In this document: positions 383 to 14,811 of the stretch, in pieces
Numbering within the stretch: the first letter of the stretch is position 1
How the letters are laid out: every line of letters begins with the position of its first letter
Source of the DNA: an uncultured Acidobacteriia bacterium
Lineage (GTDB): Bacteria; Acidobacteriota; Terriglobia; Bryobacterales; Bryobacteraceae
DNA length: 64,000 bases
Assembly: GCA_903851195.1 (NCBI GenBank)
Contig: CAINNJ010000055.1
Span: 62,001-126,000 of the forward strand
Direction of reading: 5' to 3'
The notes under the pieces: generated by a model
Told to the model about the DNA's origin: nothing
Database searches by the model: none
The model's input: only the letters and a program-made list of their open reading frames with translations
Position numbers and translations under genes: made by a program

Positions 383-423
383 TTGAGTTGTGGCACTAGT
401 GTTAGGCTAACGAGAGACCTCGC

Positions 424-1842
424 ATGTCAGCGCAGATCCTGTTACAGGGCAGACTGCTGGGGGCGGATGAATTTCTCCTTTCCGCTCCGGCAGATAAAGA
501 TAATCGTGCGTTTGAAGCGCGCCTCTGGTGGGTGGCGTTGCTGGGCGACGTCTTGCCGCGCGCTCTGCTCGCGGAACTGCAACTGCCTCCTCTGCTTCTG
601 GGCTCGGCCGGTGGCGGCAGATTTCTGGTGATTCTTCCGGATAACGCCCGCGCCGCGGCTGCCGGCGAGTTTCTCGACAAGGTCAGCGAGGCGCTCGAAC
701 GCTTTACCGGCGGAGTCGTGCGCATCGCCTGGAGTGCCACGGAAAATCTGGGCGACTGGACAGTCGTCCGCAAGCGCCTGCAGGACGGCACGCGCGCTTC
801 GCAAAAAACGCACGCCCCCGCGGCCGGCTTCTTCGACCCTTTCGTTCCCGCGCCCTCCGGCGATTCGATTCCGCGCGGTCTGCGCGACGCCACCGGCATC
901 GGTTTCAGCCTGGATTTCCCGGCACTGCTCGGCATCGAAGGCGGCCAACATCGCTGGGATCTCGGCCGTCAGGCCAGTCTCGAAAACATCTCGCTTACCC
1001 GGCACGCCGCGCGCAACGGCGACGCCATCGCATCGGTGAAGGAACTCGCCAAGCGCGCCAAAGGCGAAAAGCTCTGGGGCATGCTGCGCGGCGAGATCGA
1101 CGATTTCGGCACCCGCATCCGCCGCGCCCAAAGCGTGGAAGAGCATGTCCAGCTTTCCATGCTGTACAAGCAGTTTCTGGCGGGCGAGATCGAACTGCTC
1201 TGTTCCCAGGGCGACTACTTCCAGCGCGTCACCGTCCTTCGCGCCGATACCGCCGATTTCGCGGTCTATGGCTCCTGGGACGCCCTGCCCGGATTTGCCC
1301 GCGAACTGCAGCGCGTCTTCGCCGTCTTCGCTGAAGAGAACCTGAAGGAACTGCCCGGCGGGGAAGCGAAGAGCATCACCATGGCGACCACGCTGGCCGA
1401 CCCGGGCGCGGCTATCGCGCGCGTCTGGCAGGACAGCGTTCGGGATCTCGAAATCGCTAAGGCGTCCGATAAGGATTGCTTCTACATGCTGGGCGAAGTG
1501 CTCGAATGGAAGCAGCTGAACGAGGCGGCGGAACTCAAAGACACCGTGGTTCAGCTGAACGAGGAATTCCGCGGCGGCAAGCAGTTCCTTAGCCAGTTGC
1601 GTAACCTGTATAAGAAGGCGGAAACGCCCGGCGCGGGTCCGGCCGATCAGGAACGCCTCATGGCGCGGGCCGTCCGTTTTCAGCGGCGCTTTGCCCGCGT
1701 GGCGAATCGCAAAGAGCGCGAGTTCCAGAAGTTGCGTTCCCATCTGATGAAAGAAATGGCCGGCCGCAGTCAGAGGGGCCGGCTCAAATTGCGGCCGGAA
1801 GGTTTGGTGGCGCTCGAGTGGGCGCGCCTCGCAGAGGATTAG
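424..1842 (+). CDS. csm1: Minimal Csm1/Cas10-like large subunit, HD-less and GGDD-less
   Basis: This is the large subunit of a type III-A (Csm) CRISPR effector. Family Csm1 proteins are usually 750-850 residues with HD nuclease, Palm1, zinc finger, Palm2 (GGDD cyclase) and a C-terminal helical domain. This protein has 472. Residues 60-72 (GSAGGGRFLVILP) match the Palm1 core. Residues 217-229 (LWGMLRGEIDDFG) match the LkxDVDxLG start of Palm2 with D changed to E. Residues 271-286 (VLRADTADFAVYGSWD) align with the usual YAGGDDLF...GPWD, so GGDD is D275-T276-A277-D278. Residues 351-400 match the usual LFGE...W..F..LYK C-terminus. There is no HD motif at the N-terminus, and only two cysteines (C260, C352), so no zinc finger. 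Both enzymatic activities are probably lost. ATG is preceded by GAGAG. It is first in a five-gene csm operon, 6 nt before csm2. Confidence 0.85.
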   Translation: MSAQILLQGRLLGADEFLLSAPADKDNRAFEARLWWVALLGDVLPRALLAELQLPPLLLGSAGGGRFLVILPDNARAAAAGEFLDKVSEALERFTGGVVRIAWSATENLGDWTVVRKRLQDGTRASQKTHAPAAGFFDPFVPAPSGDSIPRGLRDATGIGFSLDFPALLGIEGGQHRWDLGRQASLENISLTRHAARNGDAIASVKELAKRAKGEKLWGMLRGEIDDFGTRIRRAQSVEEHVQLSMLYKQFLAGEIELLCSQGDYFQRVTVLRADTADFAVYGSWDALPGFARELQRVFAVFAEENLKELPGGEAKSITMATTLADPGAAIARVWQDSVRDLEIAKASDKDCFYMLGEVLEWKQLNEAAELKDTVVQLNEEFRGGKQFLSQLRNLYKKAETPGAGPADQERLMARAVRFQRRFARVANRKEREFQKLRSHLMKEMAGRSQRGRLKLRPEGLVALEWARLAED

Positions 1843-1848
1843 AGAGAC

Positions 1849-2439
1849 ATGGCTGAAGAGCAGGCGAAACAACAGGGAAATCGCGAAAATCGGCCGCCCC
1901 GCGAAGGCGGCGGTGGCTCCCGGCCCGGTGGCCGCCCCGCCGGTGGACCCGGTAGCGGTGGTCCCGGCGGCGAACGGCGCGAAGGGCGTCCCGGGGGTGA
2001 TCGTGGTGGCGACCGCGGCGGTGATCGTGGTGGTCGCGAAGGCCGGCCCGGTGGCGATCGTGGCGGAGACCGCGGCGGCGAGCGCCGCTTCGACGGACCG
2101 CCCGAGATCGAACTCGAAAAGCTCGTCGGCGACAGCCTGTACCTGGACAACCAGGCGCACATCGTCGTCAGCCGCATGCGCGATATGGATTCCGGCACGC
2201 GCAGCCAGTTGCGCCGCCTCTACAACGCCGTGCGCCGGGCCACCCGCGCGCCGGAGAACGAACGCCAGCACGAATTCGTCATGTTGCGCGCCCGTCTGGC
2301 CTACACCATCGCGCGCCACGGACTGCGCAGTCTCGACCAGCTCGAGCGGCTGTTGCTGCAGGTGACGCGCAAGAACGATGCGCGGGGCTATGAACGCTTC
2401 CGCGATCTCTTCGAAGCCATCGTTGCTTATAACGAATAG
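1849..2439 (+). CDS. csm2: Csm2 small subunit with an N-terminal RGG-rich tail
   Basis: Residues 85-196 form an all-helical domain that fits Csm2 (Cas11 of type III-A), the small subunit that lines the inner filament of the complex. Supporting stretches are EIELEKLVGDSLYLDNQAH, SGTRSQLRRLYNAV and FRDLFEAIVAY. Position between csm1 and csm3 supports the call, since Csm2 is poorly conserved. Residues 1-83 are low-complexity Gly/Arg/Pro with repeated RPGGDRGGDRGG units, resembling RGG-box RNA-binding tails. Ordinary Csm2 proteins are about 120-160 residues and lack such a tail. The start ATG follows AGAGAG, 6 nt after csm1. The repetitive coding DNA at 1910-2090 makes length variation among relatives likely. 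Confidence 0.8.
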   Translation: MAEEQAKQQGNRENRPPREGGGGSRPGGRPAGGPGSGGPGGERREGRPGGDRGGDRGGDRGGREGRPGGDRGGDRGGERRFDGPPEIELEKLVGDSLYLDNQAHIVVSRMRDMDSGTRSQLRRLYNAVRRATRAPENERQHEFVMLRARLAYTIARHGLRSLDQLERLLLQVTRKNDARGYERFRDLFEAIVAYNE

Positions 2440-2464
2440 AATAATCAGGATCTGAAGGACGCGA

Positions 2465-3301
2465 ATGAGCGCTCACACTGCACAAACGGAATTGAAGCTG
2501 ATCGGCAAACTGATCCTCGAAGGCGAGTTGCACTGCGAGACCGGCCTGCACATCGGCGCGGGCAAAGGCTCTTTGGAAATCGGCGGCGCGGATAACCCCG
2601 TCGTGAAGGATTCGCACGGGCGTCCCTACGTCCCCGGCAGTTCGCTGCGCGGTCGCATTCGCGCGCTGCTCGAGCAATCGACCGGCGCCGCCGTGCCCTC
2701 CGAACTCGTCTATCTTTCGAAGCGCAAAGGCCAGGAAGTCCGTATCCACCAGAGCGACCGGGCCGACGACGAGATCTGCATCCTGTTCGGCCGCAGCCCG
2801 GGCCGCATGGAAAAGGTGGGCGGCGGCGACCTCGACAGCAATCACGCCACCCCCGCGCGCCTCAGCGTCTTCGACGCGCCTCTGGTCGCCGAAAGCATCA
2901 CGCCCCAGATGCGCGAAACGCTGGATGACGAACTCACGGAAGTGAAGAGCGAGAACGCCATCGATCGCATCACGTCCCAGGCCAATCCCCGCACTCTCGA
3001 ACGCGTCCCCGCCGGCGCGCGCTTCAAAGTGCGCATGGTGCTCGATGTGCTTTGCCCGGAAGACGCCGTGCTGCCTGGCCTGCTTGTGCAGGGCCTTCGG
3101 CTGCTGGAAGACGACACCCTGGGTGGCGGCGGTTCGCGCGGCAGCGGCCGCGTTCGCTTTGCCGACCTGAAACTCCTCTGGCGCGGGCGCGAGTTCTATG
3201 CCTCCGGTGCCGCCGAACGCGAGATCGCGGCCGGAACCGATTCCGCCGGTCTTCAGGCCAAAGTCAATGAAGCCGGCGACAGCCTGATTGGCGCAGCCTG
3301 A
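2465..3301 (+). CDS. csm3: Csm3, backbone RAMP protein with target-RNA slicer site
   Basis: This is Csm3 (Cas7 group), the repeated backbone subunit that binds crRNA and cuts target RNA at 6-nt intervals. Residues 27-31 (GLHIG) and 41-49 (GADNPVVKD) align with the region of the known catalytic aspartate (D32 of Staphylococcus epidermidis Csm3), here D43, which is present. Other family features are YVPGSSLRGRIRALL (55-69), TEVKSENAIDRITSQANPR (158-176) and the glycine-rich RAMP loop LGGGGSRGSGRVRF (219-232). At 278 residues it is slightly longer than the usual 215-250 because of a 35-residue C-terminal extension. It starts 25 nt after csm2, behind a GAAGGA ribosome-binding site. By sequence the slicer should be active. 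Confidence 0.95.
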   Translation: MSAHTAQTELKLIGKLILEGELHCETGLHIGAGKGSLEIGGADNPVVKDSHGRPYVPGSSLRGRIRALLEQSTGAAVPSELVYLSKRKGQEVRIHQSDRADDEICILFGRSPGRMEKVGGGDLDSNHATPARLSVFDAPLVAESITPQMRETLDDELTEVKSENAIDRITSQANPRTLERVPAGARFKVRMVLDVLCPEDAVLPGLLVQGLRLLEDDTLGGGGSRGSGRVRFADLKLLWRGREFYASGAAEREIAAGTDSAGLQAKVNEAGDSLIGAA

Positions 3302-3323
3302 TCGGCCGCAAGAGAGCCGCTGA

Positions 3324-4724
3324 ATGAGTCTGATTGAAGTCAAGCTGCGGCCCACGGGCCCGTGGCGTGTGGGGCATCGCGCGGGCGACCGGGAACGGGT
3401 CGATGTGATTTATCACAGCGACGCGCTCTATTCCGCTGTCACCCATGCCATGCGCGCGCTCGGCTGGCTGACCGAGTGGCTCGAAGCGACCGCCGCGGCG
3501 ACCGGCGACCCGGCCGTCCGTTTCAGTTCGCTGTTCCCGTTCATGGGCAAGACGCGCCTGGTGACGCCGCCCAAATCGGCGTGGCCTCCGGCGCTCCCGG
3601 GCCGGCTCTACCTGCAGGGCGCGAAGCTGATTCCGCTCGAAATTGTGAAGACCGGCGTTGTGGATGAGTCGCGCTGGAGCGTCGATGGCGAAAGCCAGTG
3701 CCTGGTGCCGCTGGGCGGCAGCGCGCCGTTCCGCATCTCGATGCGTTCCGCCGCCGCCGTGGATCGTCTTACCGGCGTTGCCGAGCCTTTTCAGACCGCC
3801 TGCCTGGAGTTCGCGCCGAACGCCGGGCTCTGGGGCGTGTTTTCCGTTTCCGATCCCGTCTGGGAATCCCGCGTCAAAGCGGCTTTGCGCCTGCTGGCCG
3901 ATTCCGGCTTCGGCGGCGAGCGCTCCCGTGGCTGGGGCCGTGCCAGTGAGCCGCATTTCGCGGAAGCCTCGCATCTCTTCGCGGCTACCGGTGTGGAGAA
4001 ATGCTGGTGGCTGCTTTCGCTTTTTTCGCCGCACGAGCAGGATGTAGTGGACTGGTCCCGCGGGGAGTTCACCGCGACCGTGCGAGGCGGCTGGACCGAC
4101 AGCCCCGCCGGCGCCGGCGCGAAGAAGCAGGTTCGCATGATGGAGGAAGGCTCCGTGGTCGCCGCCGATTCGCTGCGCGGCCGTGCCGTTGACGTCGCCC
4201 CGGACGGCTTCCCGCATCCCGTGTATCGGGCGGGTTTTGCGCTGGCGATGCCCGCGCCCGCCGAGATTCTTCTGCGGCCGCCGACGGTGAGCAGGCAACC
4301 GGTCGCCCCTGCAGCCGAGCCGGCCGTCGTTGCCACGCCCGAAGTGACGCCGGTCGAACCGGAGACACCCGTTGTCGAACCACCTGCAACGGAGCCCGAT
4401 CCGCTACCCGAAATCCCCGCGCTCGTGACGGAACCAGATGCGCCGATCGATGTGCCGGCTGCGGAATCCGAAACCCTTATTGATCCCGCTCCGCCTCAAC
4501 CGGAACCTCCGCCGGCGGAACCGGAAACCACTCCGGCCGAAATCCCGGCTGCGGACCCGCAACCGGAACCCGCCGTACCGGCCGCTGAGCCCGCAGAACC
4601 AGTAGCCCCTGCGGAACCCGCCGCGCCTGCGGAACCCGACGCGCCCGCTGAACCCGCGTCGCCCGGCGCCGCCGAGCACGACGAAACCACCGCTCCCCAC
4701 AACCCCGGCGAGGTACCCGAATGA
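3324..4724 (+). CDS. csm4: Csm4 with a long Pro/Glu/Ala-rich C-terminal tail
   Basis: Csm4 (Cas5 group RAMP) caps the complex by holding the crRNA 5' tag and contacting Csm1. Family features are HSDALYSAVTHAM (31-43), SGFGGERSRGWGRA (194-207, RAMP glycine loop), WLLSLFSP (229-236) and KKQVRMMEEGSV with FPHPVYRAGFALAMP at 267-310. Normal Csm4 proteins end near here at about 300-330 residues. This one continues for about 147 residues (320-466) of almost pure Pro, Ala and Glu with some Asp, Val and Thr, predicted disordered and strongly acidic. The gene starts 22 nt after csm3, and its stop overlaps the csm5 start as ATGA, so translation is coupled. Confidence 0.9.
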   Translation: MSLIEVKLRPTGPWRVGHRAGDRERVDVIYHSDALYSAVTHAMRALGWLTEWLEATAAATGDPAVRFSSLFPFMGKTRLVTPPKSAWPPALPGRLYLQGAKLIPLEIVKTGVVDESRWSVDGESQCLVPLGGSAPFRISMRSAAAVDRLTGVAEPFQTACLEFAPNAGLWGVFSVSDPVWESRVKAALRLLADSGFGGERSRGWGRASEPHFAEASHLFAATGVEKCWWLLSLFSPHEQDVVDWSRGEFTATVRGGWTDSPAGAGAKKQVRMMEEGSVVAADSLRGRAVDVAPDGFPHPVYRAGFALAMPAPAEILLRPPTVSRQPVAPAAEPAVVATPEVTPVEPETPVVEPPATEPDPLPEIPALVTEPDAPIDVPAAESETLIDPAPPQPEPPPAEPETTPAEIPAADPQPEPAVPAAEPAEPVAPAEPAAPAEPDAPAEPASPGAAEHDETTAPHNPGEVPE

Positions 4725-5872
4725 AGTACCAGCTCAAAGTCCTGACGCCCACCTTGGTCGGCGACGGCAATCGCCTCTCGCCCATCGACTACATGGTCTG
4801 GCGCGATCAGGTTAACGTTCTCAACCAGCACCGCATCTTCAAGCTGCTCTCCAAAGGCCCGCGCCTCGAAGGCTACCTGCAACAACTGCAAAAGGCCACC
4901 CGGCTCGATTTCGCCTCCTGGGGCGGCTTCGCGCAGAACTATGCCGACCGGCGCATCCCCTTCGAAGACGCCTCCTATACGCCGTTCTTCAACAGCGCTC
5001 CGGTCGAAAGCCTTAGCATCCCGACCTTCGCCACCGGCCAGTCCGGCCCGTTTATCCCAGGCGCCGCCATCAAAGGCGCGCTGCGCACGGCCTTCGTCTT
5101 TTCCCGGCTGAAGCCCGGCGCCGTTCACGATCTGGCCGACAAACTGACCGGAGAACGTCTGCCCCGTCGGCCCGCCGAAGACCTCGAACGTCACGCCGCC
5201 GGACCCGGCGGTTCCGACCGCATGCGCGTCGTCTCCATCGGCGATTCCGCCGGCCAGTCGCGCGAAACCTTCAAAGTCTACCTGCTGCGCCTTTCCACCC
5301 TGATCGCGCGCGGCCCCGACCAGTTCTCTCTCGGCTGGAAGCAGACCGGCCGCGGCGCGGTGGACGGCAAACGCCCCGACGACGCGACCCCGACTTTCGC
5401 CGAGATGGCCGCGCCCGGTACCACCTTCGAGGGCGACTGGCGTGAAAACGCCTTCCTCAATCGCGAAGAAGTCCGGCAAATGCTCCGCTGGAGCCAGCCG
5501 GTCACGCACCAGACGCTTTTCGACGCGGCCAATCAATACGCGGCGAAGCAACTCGAACTGCACGCCCGCTACGCGCAGTGGGCTTCGCTCCCGCTGCTGG
5601 CCGCGTCCGTGGCGGATCTGCAACAGAAACTCGACGCCGCGAAATCCGCCGGCGGTTGCCTTCTCGCGATCGGCTGGGGCGCAGGCTTCCTCAGCAAGTC
5701 GGCGGCTATCGGCGCGGACGAAGCGGATCAGCGCAAAGTGCTCGGCATGCTGCCGTTCTACAACAAGGCGATCCAGTCCGGCCTGCCGTTCCCGAAAACC
5801 CGGCGCGTGGTGTTCCTGAAGAACAAGCCCGCAGCCCTGCCCGGTTGGGTCGAACTCCGCGTCGGCTTATGA
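4721..5872 (+). CDS. csm5: Csm5, crRNA 3'-end RAMP subunit
   Basis: Csm5 (Cas7 group) sits at the crRNA 3' end of the Csm complex and recruits maturation nucleases in studied systems. The start MKYQLKVLTPTLVGDG gives the first RAMP strand. Residues 109-125 (GPFIPGAAIKGALRTAF) form the conserved PGSSIKGALRT-type motif. The C-terminal part has IGWGAGFLSKS, PFPKTRRVVF and LPGWVELRV, all typical. Length (383) is normal for the family. The start ATG overlaps the csm4 stop in ATGA. No cas6 or csm6 follows. Instead a Uma2-type protein begins 7 nt after the stop codon. Confidence 0.9.
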   Translation: MKYQLKVLTPTLVGDGNRLSPIDYMVWRDQVNVLNQHRIFKLLSKGPRLEGYLQQLQKATRLDFASWGGFAQNYADRRIPFEDASYTPFFNSAPVESLSIPTFATGQSGPFIPGAAIKGALRTAFVFSRLKPGAVHDLADKLTGERLPRRPAEDLERHAAGPGGSDRMRVVSIGDSAGQSRETFKVYLLRLSTLIARGPDQFSLGWKQTGRGAVDGKRPDDATPTFAEMAAPGTTFEGDWRENAFLNREEVRQMLRWSQPVTHQTLFDAANQYAAKQLELHARYAQWASLPLLAASVADLQQKLDAAKSAGGCLLAIGWGAGFLSKSAAIGADEADQRKVLGMLPFYNKAIQSGLPFPKTRRVVFLKNKPAALPGWVELRVGL

Positions 5873-5879
5873 TGGCGGT

Positions 5880-6374
5880 GTGCCAGCCGTACGAATCCCG
5901 GTAGAAGATTACCTGAAGACCAGTTACCGTCCTGACGTCGACTACGTGGACGGCTACACCGAGCAGCGGCATTGCGCCGGGAAAACCCACGGGAAAATGC
6001 TGCTTCGGCTGGCAATTCTTCTCAACAACATGCCGGCCGTGTTCGCGTATCTGGAAACACGCACCCAGGTAGCCCCCGACCGCTTCCGGGTTCCCGACGT
6101 CTGCGCGTTCCTCGACCGCGAACCCGACGAAGAACGCTTCACCACGCCGCCGTATCTCTGCATCGAAGTTCTGTCACCCGAGGACCGGATTCCTCGCGCC
6201 CTCAAAGTCGCCAAAGACTACTTCCGGATGGGCGTGCCGAACGTCTGGATTGTGGATCCCGCGGACCGCATCGCGTACGTCTGCGGTCCGGACAACACCC
6301 TGCATCCCGCGGAATTCATGATCGCCACCAGCGACGGCCGAATCGCCCTCCCGACAGAAGCGATCTTCGCCTAA
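5880..6374 (+). CDS. Uma2-family PD-(D/E)XK endonuclease-fold protein
   Basis: The 164-residue protein fits the Uma2 (DUF820) family of restriction-endonuclease-fold proteins. Candidate active-site elements are D73 in RVPDVCAF, E96 in CIEVLSPED and K109 in ALKVAKDYFRMG, followed by the signature GVPNVWIVDPADR. Family members are very common in cyanobacteria, Acidobacteria and Planctomycetes and their function is mostly unknown. The start is GTG at 5880, because the ATG codons at 5869 and 5872 lead into an early stop. It lies 7 nt behind csm5 on the same strand, so it is probably cotranscribed with the csm genes. Whether it works with the Csm complex is inference. Its TAA overlaps the korB stop on the other strand. 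Confidence 0.8.
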   Translation: MPAVRIPVEDYLKTSYRPDVDYVDGYTEQRHCAGKTHGKMLLRLAILLNNMPAVFAYLETRTQVAPDRFRVPDVCAFLDREPDEERFTTPPYLCIEVLSPEDRIPRALKVAKDYFRMGVPNVWIVDPADRIAYVCGPDNTLHPAEFMIATSDGRIALPTEAIFA

Positions 6375-7420: not shown

Positions 7421-9215
7421 CGAGTTCCTCCACTTTCGAAGTAATCACGTCCAGCACATTTTTCGCGCTCAGCGGATAGCCGCTGTAAATCAGCACGGGC
7501 CGGATCTTGTCTTTACTGACCGGCGTCTCCAGAATCAGCATGGAACACAACTGTCCGTCCCGGTTCTGCTCCACCACATAGCAGTAATCATGCTCGGCCA
7601 GAAACTCTTCCACTTTCTGATGAAAGGGGAACGCCCGGATTCGCATGAAATCCATCGGCCTCCCCATGTCTTCCAGAATGTCCAGAGCCTCGCGCACCGC
7701 CGGATCGCAGCCACCGATCGTAATCATGCCGACCCGCGCGCCTTCCCGCCGGATAATAACCGGCTCCGGCACGGCACCCGCCGCTTCTTTATGTTTCAGC
7801 AGCAGCCGGTCCATCACTTCCTGATACTCGTCCGGAATTTCCGTATAACCGCCGAACTTGTTATGCCCCGAGCCGCGCGTGAAGAACGCGCCCTTCGAAT
7901 GCACCCCGGGCAGCGTCCGCGCCGCCACCGCGCTGCCGTTCTGCGGCAGATACCGGAAATACTTCGGCAGTTCTTCCAGTTGCGCCGCCGTCAGCACCTT
8001 GCCGCGATCCGGCCGGTACGCATCGTCCCAGTGCAGCTTCGGCGTCACCCAGTCGTTCATTCCGATATCCAGATCGGACATCAGGAAAACCGGCGTCTGA
8101 AAACGCTCCGCCAGATCGAAGCACTTCGGCGCGAATTCAAAACATTCCGAAGGATTGGCCGGAATCAGCAGAATATGCTTCGTGTCCCCGTGCGACGCAT
8201 ACGCGCACTCCAGCAGATCGCCCTGCTGCGTGCGCGTCGGCATCCCCGTCGAAGGGCCCACGCGCTGCACATCGATCACCACCGCCGGAATCTCCGCGTA
8301 GTAAGCCAGCCCGAGTAACTCATTCATCAGCGAGACGCCCGGCCCCGCCGTGGAAGTAAAGGCCCGCGCGCCGTTCCACGAAGCGCCGATCACCATGCCG
8401 ATCGCCGCTAACTCGTCTTCCGCCTGCAGAATCGCGAAGTTATTCGCGCCGGTCTCGGGATCCTTGCGGTACTGCTCGCAGAACTCCTTGAAACCATCCA
8501 TCACGGAGGTCGCCGGCGTAATCGGATACCACGCAGCCACCGTCGCGCCGCCGTAAACGCAGCCCAGCGCCGTCGCCGTATTGCCGTCGATCAGGATCTT
8601 GTCGTCGTTCGCCTGCATCGTTTCCAGATGGAAGTCGAGCGGGCATTGAAAGTGTTCCCGAACGTAATCCGCGCCCAGTTTCAGAGCCTTCTGGTTCGAT
8701 TCGCGCAGCGCCTTCTTGCGCCCGTACTTCTCTTCGACCAGCTTCTCCACCACCGCGCCGTCGATGTTCAGTAACTCGATCAGCGCGCCGGCGGTGGCGA
8801 TGTTCTTCATCAGAATGCGCTCGCGCGGCTCCCGGAAGTTCTCGTTACACATCCGCGCCAGCGGCACGCCGATATAGTTCACATCGTCGCGAAGCAGTTC
8901 GTCGTCGAGCGGCCAGCTCGAGTCATACAGCAGATAGCCGCCGGACCGCACTTCCTGCACGTCCCGCTTGTAAGTCTGCGCATTCATCGCAATCATCAGG
9001 TCATAATCGAGCGCGCGCGCCGTATAACCCTTCGGATTGACCCGGATTTCATACCAGGTAGGCAGTCCCTGAATATTCGACGGGAACAGATTCTTTCCGC
9101 TGACGGGCACGCCCATCCGGAAAATCGCCTGCATAATCAGGCCGTTGGCGCTCGCGGAACCCGTCCCGTTGACGTTCGCCAGTTTAATTGCAAAATCGTT
9201 TATGCGGCTGCGCAT
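7404..9215 (-). CDS. korA: 2-oxoacid:ferredoxin oxidoreductase, fused gamma-alpha subunit
   Basis: The protein combines the gamma domain (about residues 1-190, beginning FAIKLANVNGTGSASANG) with the alpha domain containing the substrate/CoA motif WYPITPATSVMD and STAGPGVSLMNE. Such gamma-alpha fusions are usual for KorA. I place the start at ATG 9215 (MRSRINDF), which overlaps the upstream gene's stop by 16 nt. A longer open frame upstream lies entirely inside the neighbour's coding sequence and does not look like family sequence. It pairs with KorB to form the catalytic heterodimer. Substrate choice between 2-oxoglutarate and other 2-oxoacids is not settled by sequence alone. Confidence 0.9.
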   Translation of the reverse strand: MRSRINDFAIKLANVNGTGSASANGLIMQAIFRMGVPVSGKNLFPSNIQGLPTWYEIRVNPKGYTARALDYDLMIAMNAQTYKRDVQEVRSGGYLLYDSSWPLDDELLRDDVNYIGVPLARMCNENFREPRERILMKNIATAGALIELLNIDGAVVEKLVEEKYGRKKALRESNQKALKLGADYVREHFQCPLDFHLETMQANDDKILIDGNTATALGCVYGGATVAAWYPITPATSVMDGFKEFCEQYRKDPETGANNFAILQAEDELAAIGMVIGASWNGARAFTSTAGPGVSLMNELLGLAYYAEIPAVVIDVQRVGPSTGMPTRTQQGDLLECAYASHGDTKHILLIPANPSECFEFAPKCFDLAERFQTPVFLMSDLDIGMNDWVTPKLHWDDAYRPDRGKVLTAAQLEELPKYFRYLPQNGSAVAARTLPGVHSKGAFFTRGSGHNKFGGYTEIPDEYQEVMDRLLLKHKEAAGAVPEPVIIRREGARVGMITIGGCDPAVREALDILEDMGRPMDFMRIRAFPFHQKVEEFLAEHDYCYVVEQNRDGQLCSMLILETPVSKDKIRPVLIYSGYPLSAKNVLDVITSKVEELDAIYR

Positions 9216-14073: not shown

Positions 14074-14811
14074 ATGAAAAAAGTCCTTGCGTGTTTTGTC
14101 CTGATCGCCGCTGCGGCTAACTGCCGCGCGGATGTTATCCTCGGTTCGGCCTCCGATTTCGGCGTCCTTGCCGGAACCACCATCACGAACGCCGGCAACA
14201 GCGCTGTCTACGGCGAAATCGGCGTCAACCCGGGAACCGCTGTCGTCGGGTTTCCTCCCGGCATAGCGGTCGGCGGAATTCATTTGAATGACATGGCTGC
14301 CGCACGCGCGGAGGCCGATCTCGCCAGCGCCTGTTTGTATCTGAGCGGTCTTGCCCCCACCGCCAATCTCACGGACCTCAACCTTGGCGGCAGCACCCTG
14401 ACCTCCGGGGTTTACCGGTTCGACGCCGCGGCCGATCTGAACGGAGCCCTCACGCTTTCAGGATCCGGCATTTTCCTTTTCCAGATTGCGACGTCCCTGA
14501 ACGTAGCGAATGACTCCTTGATCGTCACCAGCGGCGGCGCCAATGCCGCGGAAATTTACTTCCTGACGGGAAGTTCCGTCACCACCGGCGCCTCAGCCGC
14601 GCTGCAAGGGAATTTCATTGCGATGCAGAGTATCTCGTTCGGCACCGGGAGCAGCCTCACGGGCCGGGCGCTGGCGATCGAAGGCGCTGTCACCATGCTG
14701 GACAACGCCATCACCATCCCTGCAGCCGCGCCCGAGCCAGGCACTTTGGGGCTGGTTGCACTCATCGCGGCGCTTGGATACGCGGGACGGCGAACGAAGC
14801 CCCTCGGCTGA
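14074..14811 (+). CDS. DUF3494 ice-binding-like protein with PEP-CTERM anchor
   Basis: The signal peptide (MKKVLACFVLIAAAANCRA) is followed by an ice-binding-like DUF3494 beta-helix. Typical pieces are LGSASDFGVLAGTTITNAG, EIGVNPGTAVVGFPPG, GGIHLNDMAAARAEADL, LTSGVYRFDAAADLNGALTL and AEIYFLTGSSVTTGASAAL. The C-terminus is a PEP-CTERM exosortase signal (PEPGTLGLVALIAALGY then GRR). Family members bind ice or act as adhesins on the cell surface, and the PEP-CTERM suggests sorting by an exosortase encoded elsewhere. It is probably a single-gene unit, 66 bp after pntB and 50 bp before an esterase. Confidence 0.85.
   Translation: MKKVLACFVLIAAAANCRADVILGSASDFGVLAGTTITNAGNSAVYGEIGVNPGTAVVGFPPGIAVGGIHLNDMAAARAEADLASACLYLSGLAPTANLTDLNLGGSTLTSGVYRFDAAADLNGALTLSGSGIFLFQIATSLNVANDSLIVTSGGANAAEIYFLTGSSVTTGASAALQGNFIAMQSISFGTGSSLTGRALAIEGAVTMLDNAITIPAAAPEPGTLGLVALIAALGYAGRRTKPLG

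Follow-up and report, generated by a model that had tools for sequence, protein, structure and literature searches.

The csm operon and its surroundings

The window analysed here is a stretch of 64,000 nucleotides (G000:C55:62001-126000) from a 7.7-Mb genome in 67 contigs, and it carries five genes in the order csm1-csm2-csm3-csm4-csm5 within positions 424-5872 of the forward strand. In window coordinates, the operon and the sites discussed below are:

400..408, + strand: extended -10 element, promoter-like (TGTTAGGCT), the promoter role being assigned by eye
424..1842, + strand: csm1/cas10, 472 aa; palm 1, palm 2 and a C-terminal helical domain, HD and zinc finger absent
1093..1101, + strand: codons of E224-I225-D226 in csm1, the position of the Palm2 DxD
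1246..1257, + strand: codons of D275-T276-A277-D278 in csm1, the position of GGDD
1849..2439, + strand: csm2, 196 aa; Csm2 domain C-terminal, Arg/Gly-rich N-terminal tail at about residues 1-81 (nt 1849-2091)
2465..3301, + strand: csm3, 278 aa; TIGR02582 at 1.8e-57, Asp43 in GGADNPV (nt 2591-2593)
3324..4724, + strand: csm4, 466 aa; TIGR01903 at 9.7e-42
4721..5872, + strand: csm5, 383 aa; TIGR01899 at 8.7e-19, overlapping csm4 by 4 bp

A preliminary description of this DNA had recognised a csm3-csm4-csm5 layout of type III-A; this is borne out, with the addition that csm2 is also present. The curated NCBIfam thresholds are passed by Csm2 (43.1 against 30.6 bits), Csm3 (194.6 against 90), Csm4 (143.3 against 55) and Csm5 (68.2 against 38.3). 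Upstream of csm1, a sequence similar to the -10 element TGTTAGGCT, namely TGGTAGACT, occurs in 6 of 28 loci. The gene upstream of the operon is sugar-isomerase-like, and the one downstream, at 5880-6374, belongs to the Uma2 family; it starts 7 bp after csm5, and a homologue is absent from loci L002-L030.

The N-terminal tail of the window Csm2 (1849-2091) is of low complexity and resembles the RGG tails of RNA-binding proteins; across the Csm2 rows compared, the tail is rich in Gly, Arg and Lys (at least 40%) in 28 of 51 and rich in Pro, Ala and Glu in 9 of 51. Csm4 ends in a Pro/Ala/Glu-rich tail of about 155 residues after approximately residue 310 (4254-4721; composition judged by eye), and its length differs among relatives.

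Searching for relatives yielded 29 related loci, all of them from Acidobacteriota and many from Bryobacteraceae or Bryobacterales, and these keep the csm1-5 order wherever the contig extends far enough. Two further genes recur beside the operon in several genera, for which we used the following reference copies:

L013:13199-14074: AAA_22 ATPase
L011:6929-7936: VWA-domain protein

Of the 52 csm loci rows, 21 contain a homologue of the ATPase (67-86% identity to the L013 copy), in most cases directly after csm5, while in L103 it lies 4 kb away and is cut by the edge; the VWA protein (71-94% identity to the L011 copy, with that locus's duplicate left out) is found upstream of csm1 in 12 of the 52, some genomes being counted twice in both tallies. 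The occurrence of these two genes beside csm marks an old shared position, and they are possible ancestral neighbours or partners of the operon.

Fold and missing domains of Csm1

The csm1 reading frame is open, and its translation confirms what had been described earlier: a protein of 472 residues with DTAD at positions 275-278, E224-I-D226, two cysteines and an N-terminus without HD. The NCBIfam model for Csm1, TIGR02578, matches it at 3.5e-32 with 111.9 bits, which is below the cut-off of 170, and the best match runs from position 481 to 734 of the 753-position profile. In alignments with PDB sequences, residues 10-78 of the window Csm1 correspond to 275-343 of the E. italicus protein, and residues 210-395 to 535-717; the first of these alignments means that the window Csm1 begins with palm 1, the preceding, HD-bearing region being absent. 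A profile built from 24 relatives and compared with the PDB found 18 Csm1 sequences (2.3e-17 to 4.9e-12), followed by weak unrelated matches only. The AlphaFold2 model (pLDDT 84, pTM 0.84) shows two folds of the palm type together with a helical C-terminal portion, and the best 50 of its 74 Foldseek matches (E ≤ 0.001) are all Csm1 entries, with TMq of 0.59-0.79. On this model, the window Csm1 is predicted to retain the type III-A Csm1 fold; the earlier assignment to Cas10, with palm and C-terminal folds still recognisable, holds.

An HD nuclease domain is absent from all 92 Csm1 rows that were inspected (91 genomes, with G040 counted twice); the zinc finger is likewise missing from the relatives read, and a CxxC motif is found in one of the 92 rows. 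In 4 of the 92 the letters HD do turn up among the first 60 residues, three times inside palm 1 and once upstream of the start Met. Eight rows exceed 510 aa; most of what they have in addition is open frame that precedes the start Met, with no HD pair there.

Order of the losses in Cas10

In the window's genus, the first Asp of GGDD is lost in all 18 rows (13 Ala, 4 Ser, 1 Gly), and the motif reads DTAD, ENAE, GAAD, GSSD, GASD, GLAD, GSAD, GGSN, EGGS, TTSG, DSAD or GGAD, the last D still being D in 12 of the 18. The first Asp of the Palm2 DxD is likewise replaced by E, Q or G in 18/18, while D226 is kept in all 92 rows. An intact GGDD is thus found in 0 of 18 rows within the genus, compared with 57 of 74 outside it. 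The other 17 rows outside the genus comprise four GGND, three GGDE and one each of GGED, GSDD, AGDD, GEDD, GLND, GLEG, GIEG, SGSG, GGYD and GGHG; we counted only the last five of these as clearly broken, so that GGND, GSDD and GLND do not enter this count. Some variants of GGDD, including GGDE, GEDD, AGDD and GGED, are regarded as likely active in the excerpted text of PMC11229360, and the cyclase may therefore be active in the members of other genera that carry these four; none of the motifs of the window's genus is among the likely-active variants given in that excerpt.

GGDD looks ancestral to Bryobacteraceae. The most parsimonious order of events is that HD and zinc finger were lost before the family radiated, and that the cyclase was lost later, in the ancestor of the genus and separately elsewhere. 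Other genera mostly keep GGDD, which implies that the cyclase still matters somewhere. The preliminary description had taken the losses of HD and GGDD together; both sites are indeed absent here, but they differ in age, since most other genera have kept GGDD. Judging from the residues at these sites, the window complex would have neither cOA synthesis nor DNase activity. A search for cOA effectors, confined to the Csx1 HEPN family (PF09455), gave matches in 0 of 237 genomes, with the control matched in 2 of 14 cases.

Distribution, descent and selection

A Csm1 relative is present in 214 of 237 Bryobacteraceae genomes, in 143 of the 148 good ones and in 70 of 76 genera. When 299 genomes were drawn evenly from the class, Csm1 was found in 65 of 67 family members versus 1 of 232 others, the latter by a weak match (E 2.6e-4). 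The view that the locus represents a new reductive variant of type III-A stands as far as the reduction is concerned, whereas the variant is not confined to this locus but spread over the family. The five good genomes without a Csm1 match are G077, G078, G103, G108 and G122; a match is absent from all five g28 and both g19 genomes, so that the complex is not essential. Among viral contigs no close relative of the csm genes was found, and among plasmids none.

Conservation was compared in 21 genomes from 20 genera, that is, the 23 csm genomes remaining after removal of genus duplicates, minus G003 (partial RecA) and G118 (csm5 missing from the stretch). The median pairwise identity in this set is 0.866 for the Csm2 core, 0.771 for RecA, 0.704 for Csm3, 0.513 for Csm5, 0.473 for Csm4 and 0.462 for Csm1, with RecA being a noisy yardstick because one RecA was used for each genome though several carry two. 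Csm and RecA distances are correlated (Spearman rho 0.541, a value reached by 2 of 999 permutations), and the two trees have several clades in common, with some differences. Inheritance of the operon is mainly vertical, and a csm operon without HD is a near-universal trait of the family.

Comparison of the window genes with those of L002, L008 and L003 by the NG86 method gave dN/dS of 0.06-0.13 for csm1, 0.04-0.12 for csm2 and 0.05-0.09 for csm3, along with 0.16-0.17 for csm4 (two comparisons) and 0.09-0.23 for csm5 against relatives; these values are rough, as dS ranges from 0.66 to 2.06 and one of the three csm1 comparisons involves a partial gene. All five genes, csm1-5, are under purifying selection.

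The cleavage residue of Csm3

Asp43 of the window Csm3 lines up with the Asp in the IGG-x-DNPV motif of solved Csm3, which is the residue that cleaves target RNA, the third classical output of these complexes. All 51 rows compared retain this Asp; at least three genomes are included among them under two sources. The earlier suggestion that a structural function is retained agrees with the preserved Csm1 fold and with purifying selection on the genes, but it undersells the complex, given that the cleavage residue of Csm3 is kept throughout.

A proposed reduction to guided RNA targeting

We propose, with a probability of about 60%, that these genes encode a vertically inherited Csm complex with Cas10 as a scaffold, pared down to binding and cutting RNA under the direction of guides that are supplied in trans. 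That csm is often found without detectable CRISPR memory suggests an immune machine turned into a tool acting at the level of RNA. In canonical Csm complexes, Csm4 caps the 5' handle, Csm3 and Csm2 form the filament and Csm5 the tip. By analogy, the complex encoded here would assemble on a guide RNA with Csm4 on the 5' handle, a filament of Csm3 and Csm2, and Csm5 at the tip; once loaded, it would bind complementary transcripts and probably cut them by means of the conserved Asp of Csm3. Unlinked arrays may provide the guides in trans, or single repeats may do so, with an unlinked Cas6 as the processing enzyme. In the window's genus, the predicted output is that chosen RNAs are silenced with neither DNA damage nor a second-messenger alarm.

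A more far-reaching version, which we regard as tentative and would sooner bet against than for, is that Csm has become a fully domesticated core RNP of Bryobacteraceae, with Cas10 as a scaffold, which is loaded by an unlinked Cas6 with endogenous guides, perhaps in the form of single repeats, and cuts or holds host transcripts, as an analogue of RNA interference in bacteria that is independent of spacer acquisition.

Sources of guides and alternative explanations

No array and no other cas gene, cas6 and cas1 included, was seen adjoining the csm operon, and an exact-repeat finder run on the window, on loci L002-L030, L077 and L078 and on L099-L118 reported no CRISPR array. Array-like matches near csm in L021/L112, L026, L110 and L113 were rejected as tandem repeats or minisatellites without differing spacers; they lie at:

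L110:2328-2644: minisatellite
L113:2014-2433: minisatellite
L026, about 8177-8400: minisatellite
L021, about 14547-14700: minisatellite

The tandem repeats of these four loci have periods of about 45-60, are located beyond the AAA gene and translate in one frame to Pro-rich repeat peptides. In the family as a whole, Cas6 (PF10040) is present in 198 and Cas1 in 120 of 237 genomes; matches to a three-repeat array pattern occur in 103 of the 237, where single matches can be due to chance, some reversed controls also matching.

The csm genes could serve ordinary defence in trans, in which Csm would destroy phage transcripts with crRNAs borrowed from other arrays of its genome, for instance those of type I, having shed HD and cyclase because other systems supply DNA cleavage. 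We consider this a serious contender that falls somewhat short of even odds. Potential lenders exist in the window's own genome, which has Cas1 and Cas6 matches on other contigs and three repeat types (C60, C50/C34 and C42): C60 holds an array with five complete repeats of 37 nt and one degenerate copy, at a distance of about 7 kb from an unlinked cas6, and C50 has a Cas4-Cas1 fusion and an array, of type I by resemblance only. In G117, CCCC..GGGG repeats occur together with cas3, cas7, cas6 and cas1, which makes borrowing of crRNAs plausible, and Cas1 is present in 79 of 143 good csm-positive genomes. The use of crRNAs in trans has also been proposed for III-G (PMC12669027). Parts of two of the five C60 spacers had no exact match in viral contigs. 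On the other side, Cas1 is lacking in 64 of the 143, and 52 have neither Cas1 nor the array pattern nor the CCCC..GGGG repeat, an absence that is bound to the pattern, as only normally spaced repeats with a TGARRC end are captured by it and the genomes are mostly fragmented. Csm3 is about equally conserved in genomes without arrays, its rate relative to RecA being 1.22 there (8 genomes) versus 1.30 in those with arrays (10 genomes); the corresponding ratio for the Csm2 core is 0.67 versus 0.51 (again 8 and 10 genomes), making it somewhat less conserved in the array-less group. The near-universal presence of csm and its RecA-like conservation also speak against a role in defence, both being unusual among defence genes.

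The small contig C42 (L066, G000:C42:1-4535) contains, apart from its array, a second, divergent match to Cas6 as well as genes judged by eye to be cas2-like and ParB-like.

Alternatively, csm may encode a housekeeping RNP that is programmed by a fixed guide of endogenous origin, or that binds host RNA with no spacer involved, and that regulates or decays host transcripts, arrays being irrelevant to it; we view this as possible, while leaning against it. The distribution typical of a core gene, the mainly vertical descent, a Csm2 core more conserved than RecA and the Arg/Gly-rich Csm2 tail, as in RNA-binding proteins, all favour such a role, as does the presence of csm in genomes that are array-less by pattern, such as G201 (two contigs), 46 of these 52 genomes keeping Cas6. 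Among all 143 good csm-positive genomes, 16 are without a PF10040 Cas6, and cas6 is not syntenic; both observations weigh against the trans-guided complex proposed above. A conserved guide or target was looked for and not found, however: upstream of csm1 in 28 loci, inspection by eye and 9-mer counts detected no conserved guide RNA and only the promoter-like -10 element, and a search for repeat-like hairpins gave 205 matches against 52 in the reversed control; about 158 of the 205 fall in known CRISPR repeats and the rest are at control level, with no credible hairpin beside csm. The g28 and g19 genomes without Csm1 count against housekeeping as well. Isolated CRISPR-type repeats outside arrays were found in genomes of the window's genus (G006, G011, G013 and G016):

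L197: isolated CRISPR-type repeat
L081: isolated CRISPR-type repeat
L199: isolated CRISPR-type repeat
L080: isolated CRISPR-type repeat

The sequences downstream of them are unrelated, and Cas1 is present in G011 and G016 and absent from G006 and G013; these repeats are either remnants or single-guide genes.

It is improbable, in our view, that the complex is a non-cleaving scaffold that binds guide-matched RNA and blocks translation with no nuclease activity. Such a scaffold would fit the apparent loss of both Cas10 activities in the genus, but not the invariant Asp of Csm3, in contrast to III-G and III-H, in which, according to PMC12669027, the Asp of Cas7 is not conserved. The idea that a normal III-A locus is decaying here deserves almost no credence: motifs are lost and adaptation genes and array are absent alongside, but open frames, dN/dS of 0.04-0.23 and the conservation of five genes across genera already contradict it, as the preliminary description had argued from the intact csm1 frame. 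Assembly error or fresh decay was rejected as well, given that close relatives show the same loss with different letters and dN/dS is low.

Significance and relation to known systems

CRISPR effectors are normally patchy in distribution, mobile and fast-evolving. Here a multi-subunit effector is near-universal in one family, follows the RecA tree broadly and has some subunits about as conserved as RecA, while two collateral activities fade. The family thus amounts to a natural experiment that asks which of the type III activities pays for its retention, the answer being RNA targeting, and it shows an ordered series of losses, with HD going first and the cyclase later and more than once. It also provides a testable case of a type III complex outside adaptive immunity, and a Csm whose Cas10 is naturally silent could serve as a clean tool for RNA knockdown. 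A literature search of titles and abstracts, covering mostly open-access papers and no bioRxiv preprints, found no description of such a family-wide Csm. CRISPR systems of Acidobacteriota are treated in PMC11778308 and PMC11742911, whose supplements may contain such loci; the stem "acidobacteri" is absent from the main text of PMC12669027 and PMC11229360.

HD is reported for 65% of III-A in the excerpt of PMC11229360, so that it is common in this subtype and not strictly defining. The csm operon resembles type III-A in the content and order of csm1-5, the Csm1 fold and the cleavage Asp of Csm3. It differs in that the window Csm1 has 472 aa, compared with 756-816 aa for the solved Csm1 chains, and lacks HD and zinc finger; in that GGDD is absent in the genus; and in that no cas6, cas1 or array adjoins an operon that is near-universal and mainly vertical in one family.

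Type III-C is Cmr-type, whereas the genes here are csm genes and HD is absent. A missing cyclase site is common to both, according to the sections of PMC11229360 and PMC12669027 consulted, and in the former half of the III-C loci have HD. The same excerpt of PMC11229360 includes type III loci that are HD-less and cyclase-positive, the state that appears ancestral for Bryobacteraceae; 133 of these are without a recognised effector, and the paper does not present them as a core trait shared by a bacterial family.

With III-G and III-H the operon shares an inactivated polymerase/cyclase site in Cas10 and the absence of an adaptation module, and with III-G also the lack of an array and crRNAs proposed to be supplied in trans, according to PMC12669027. 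In that text, however, III-G and III-H have an apparently active HD, lack the catalytic Asp of Cas7 and are predicted to target DNA. The Bryobacteraceae operon differs from them in gene content and is their mirror image, with HD absent and the Asp of Csm3 invariant.
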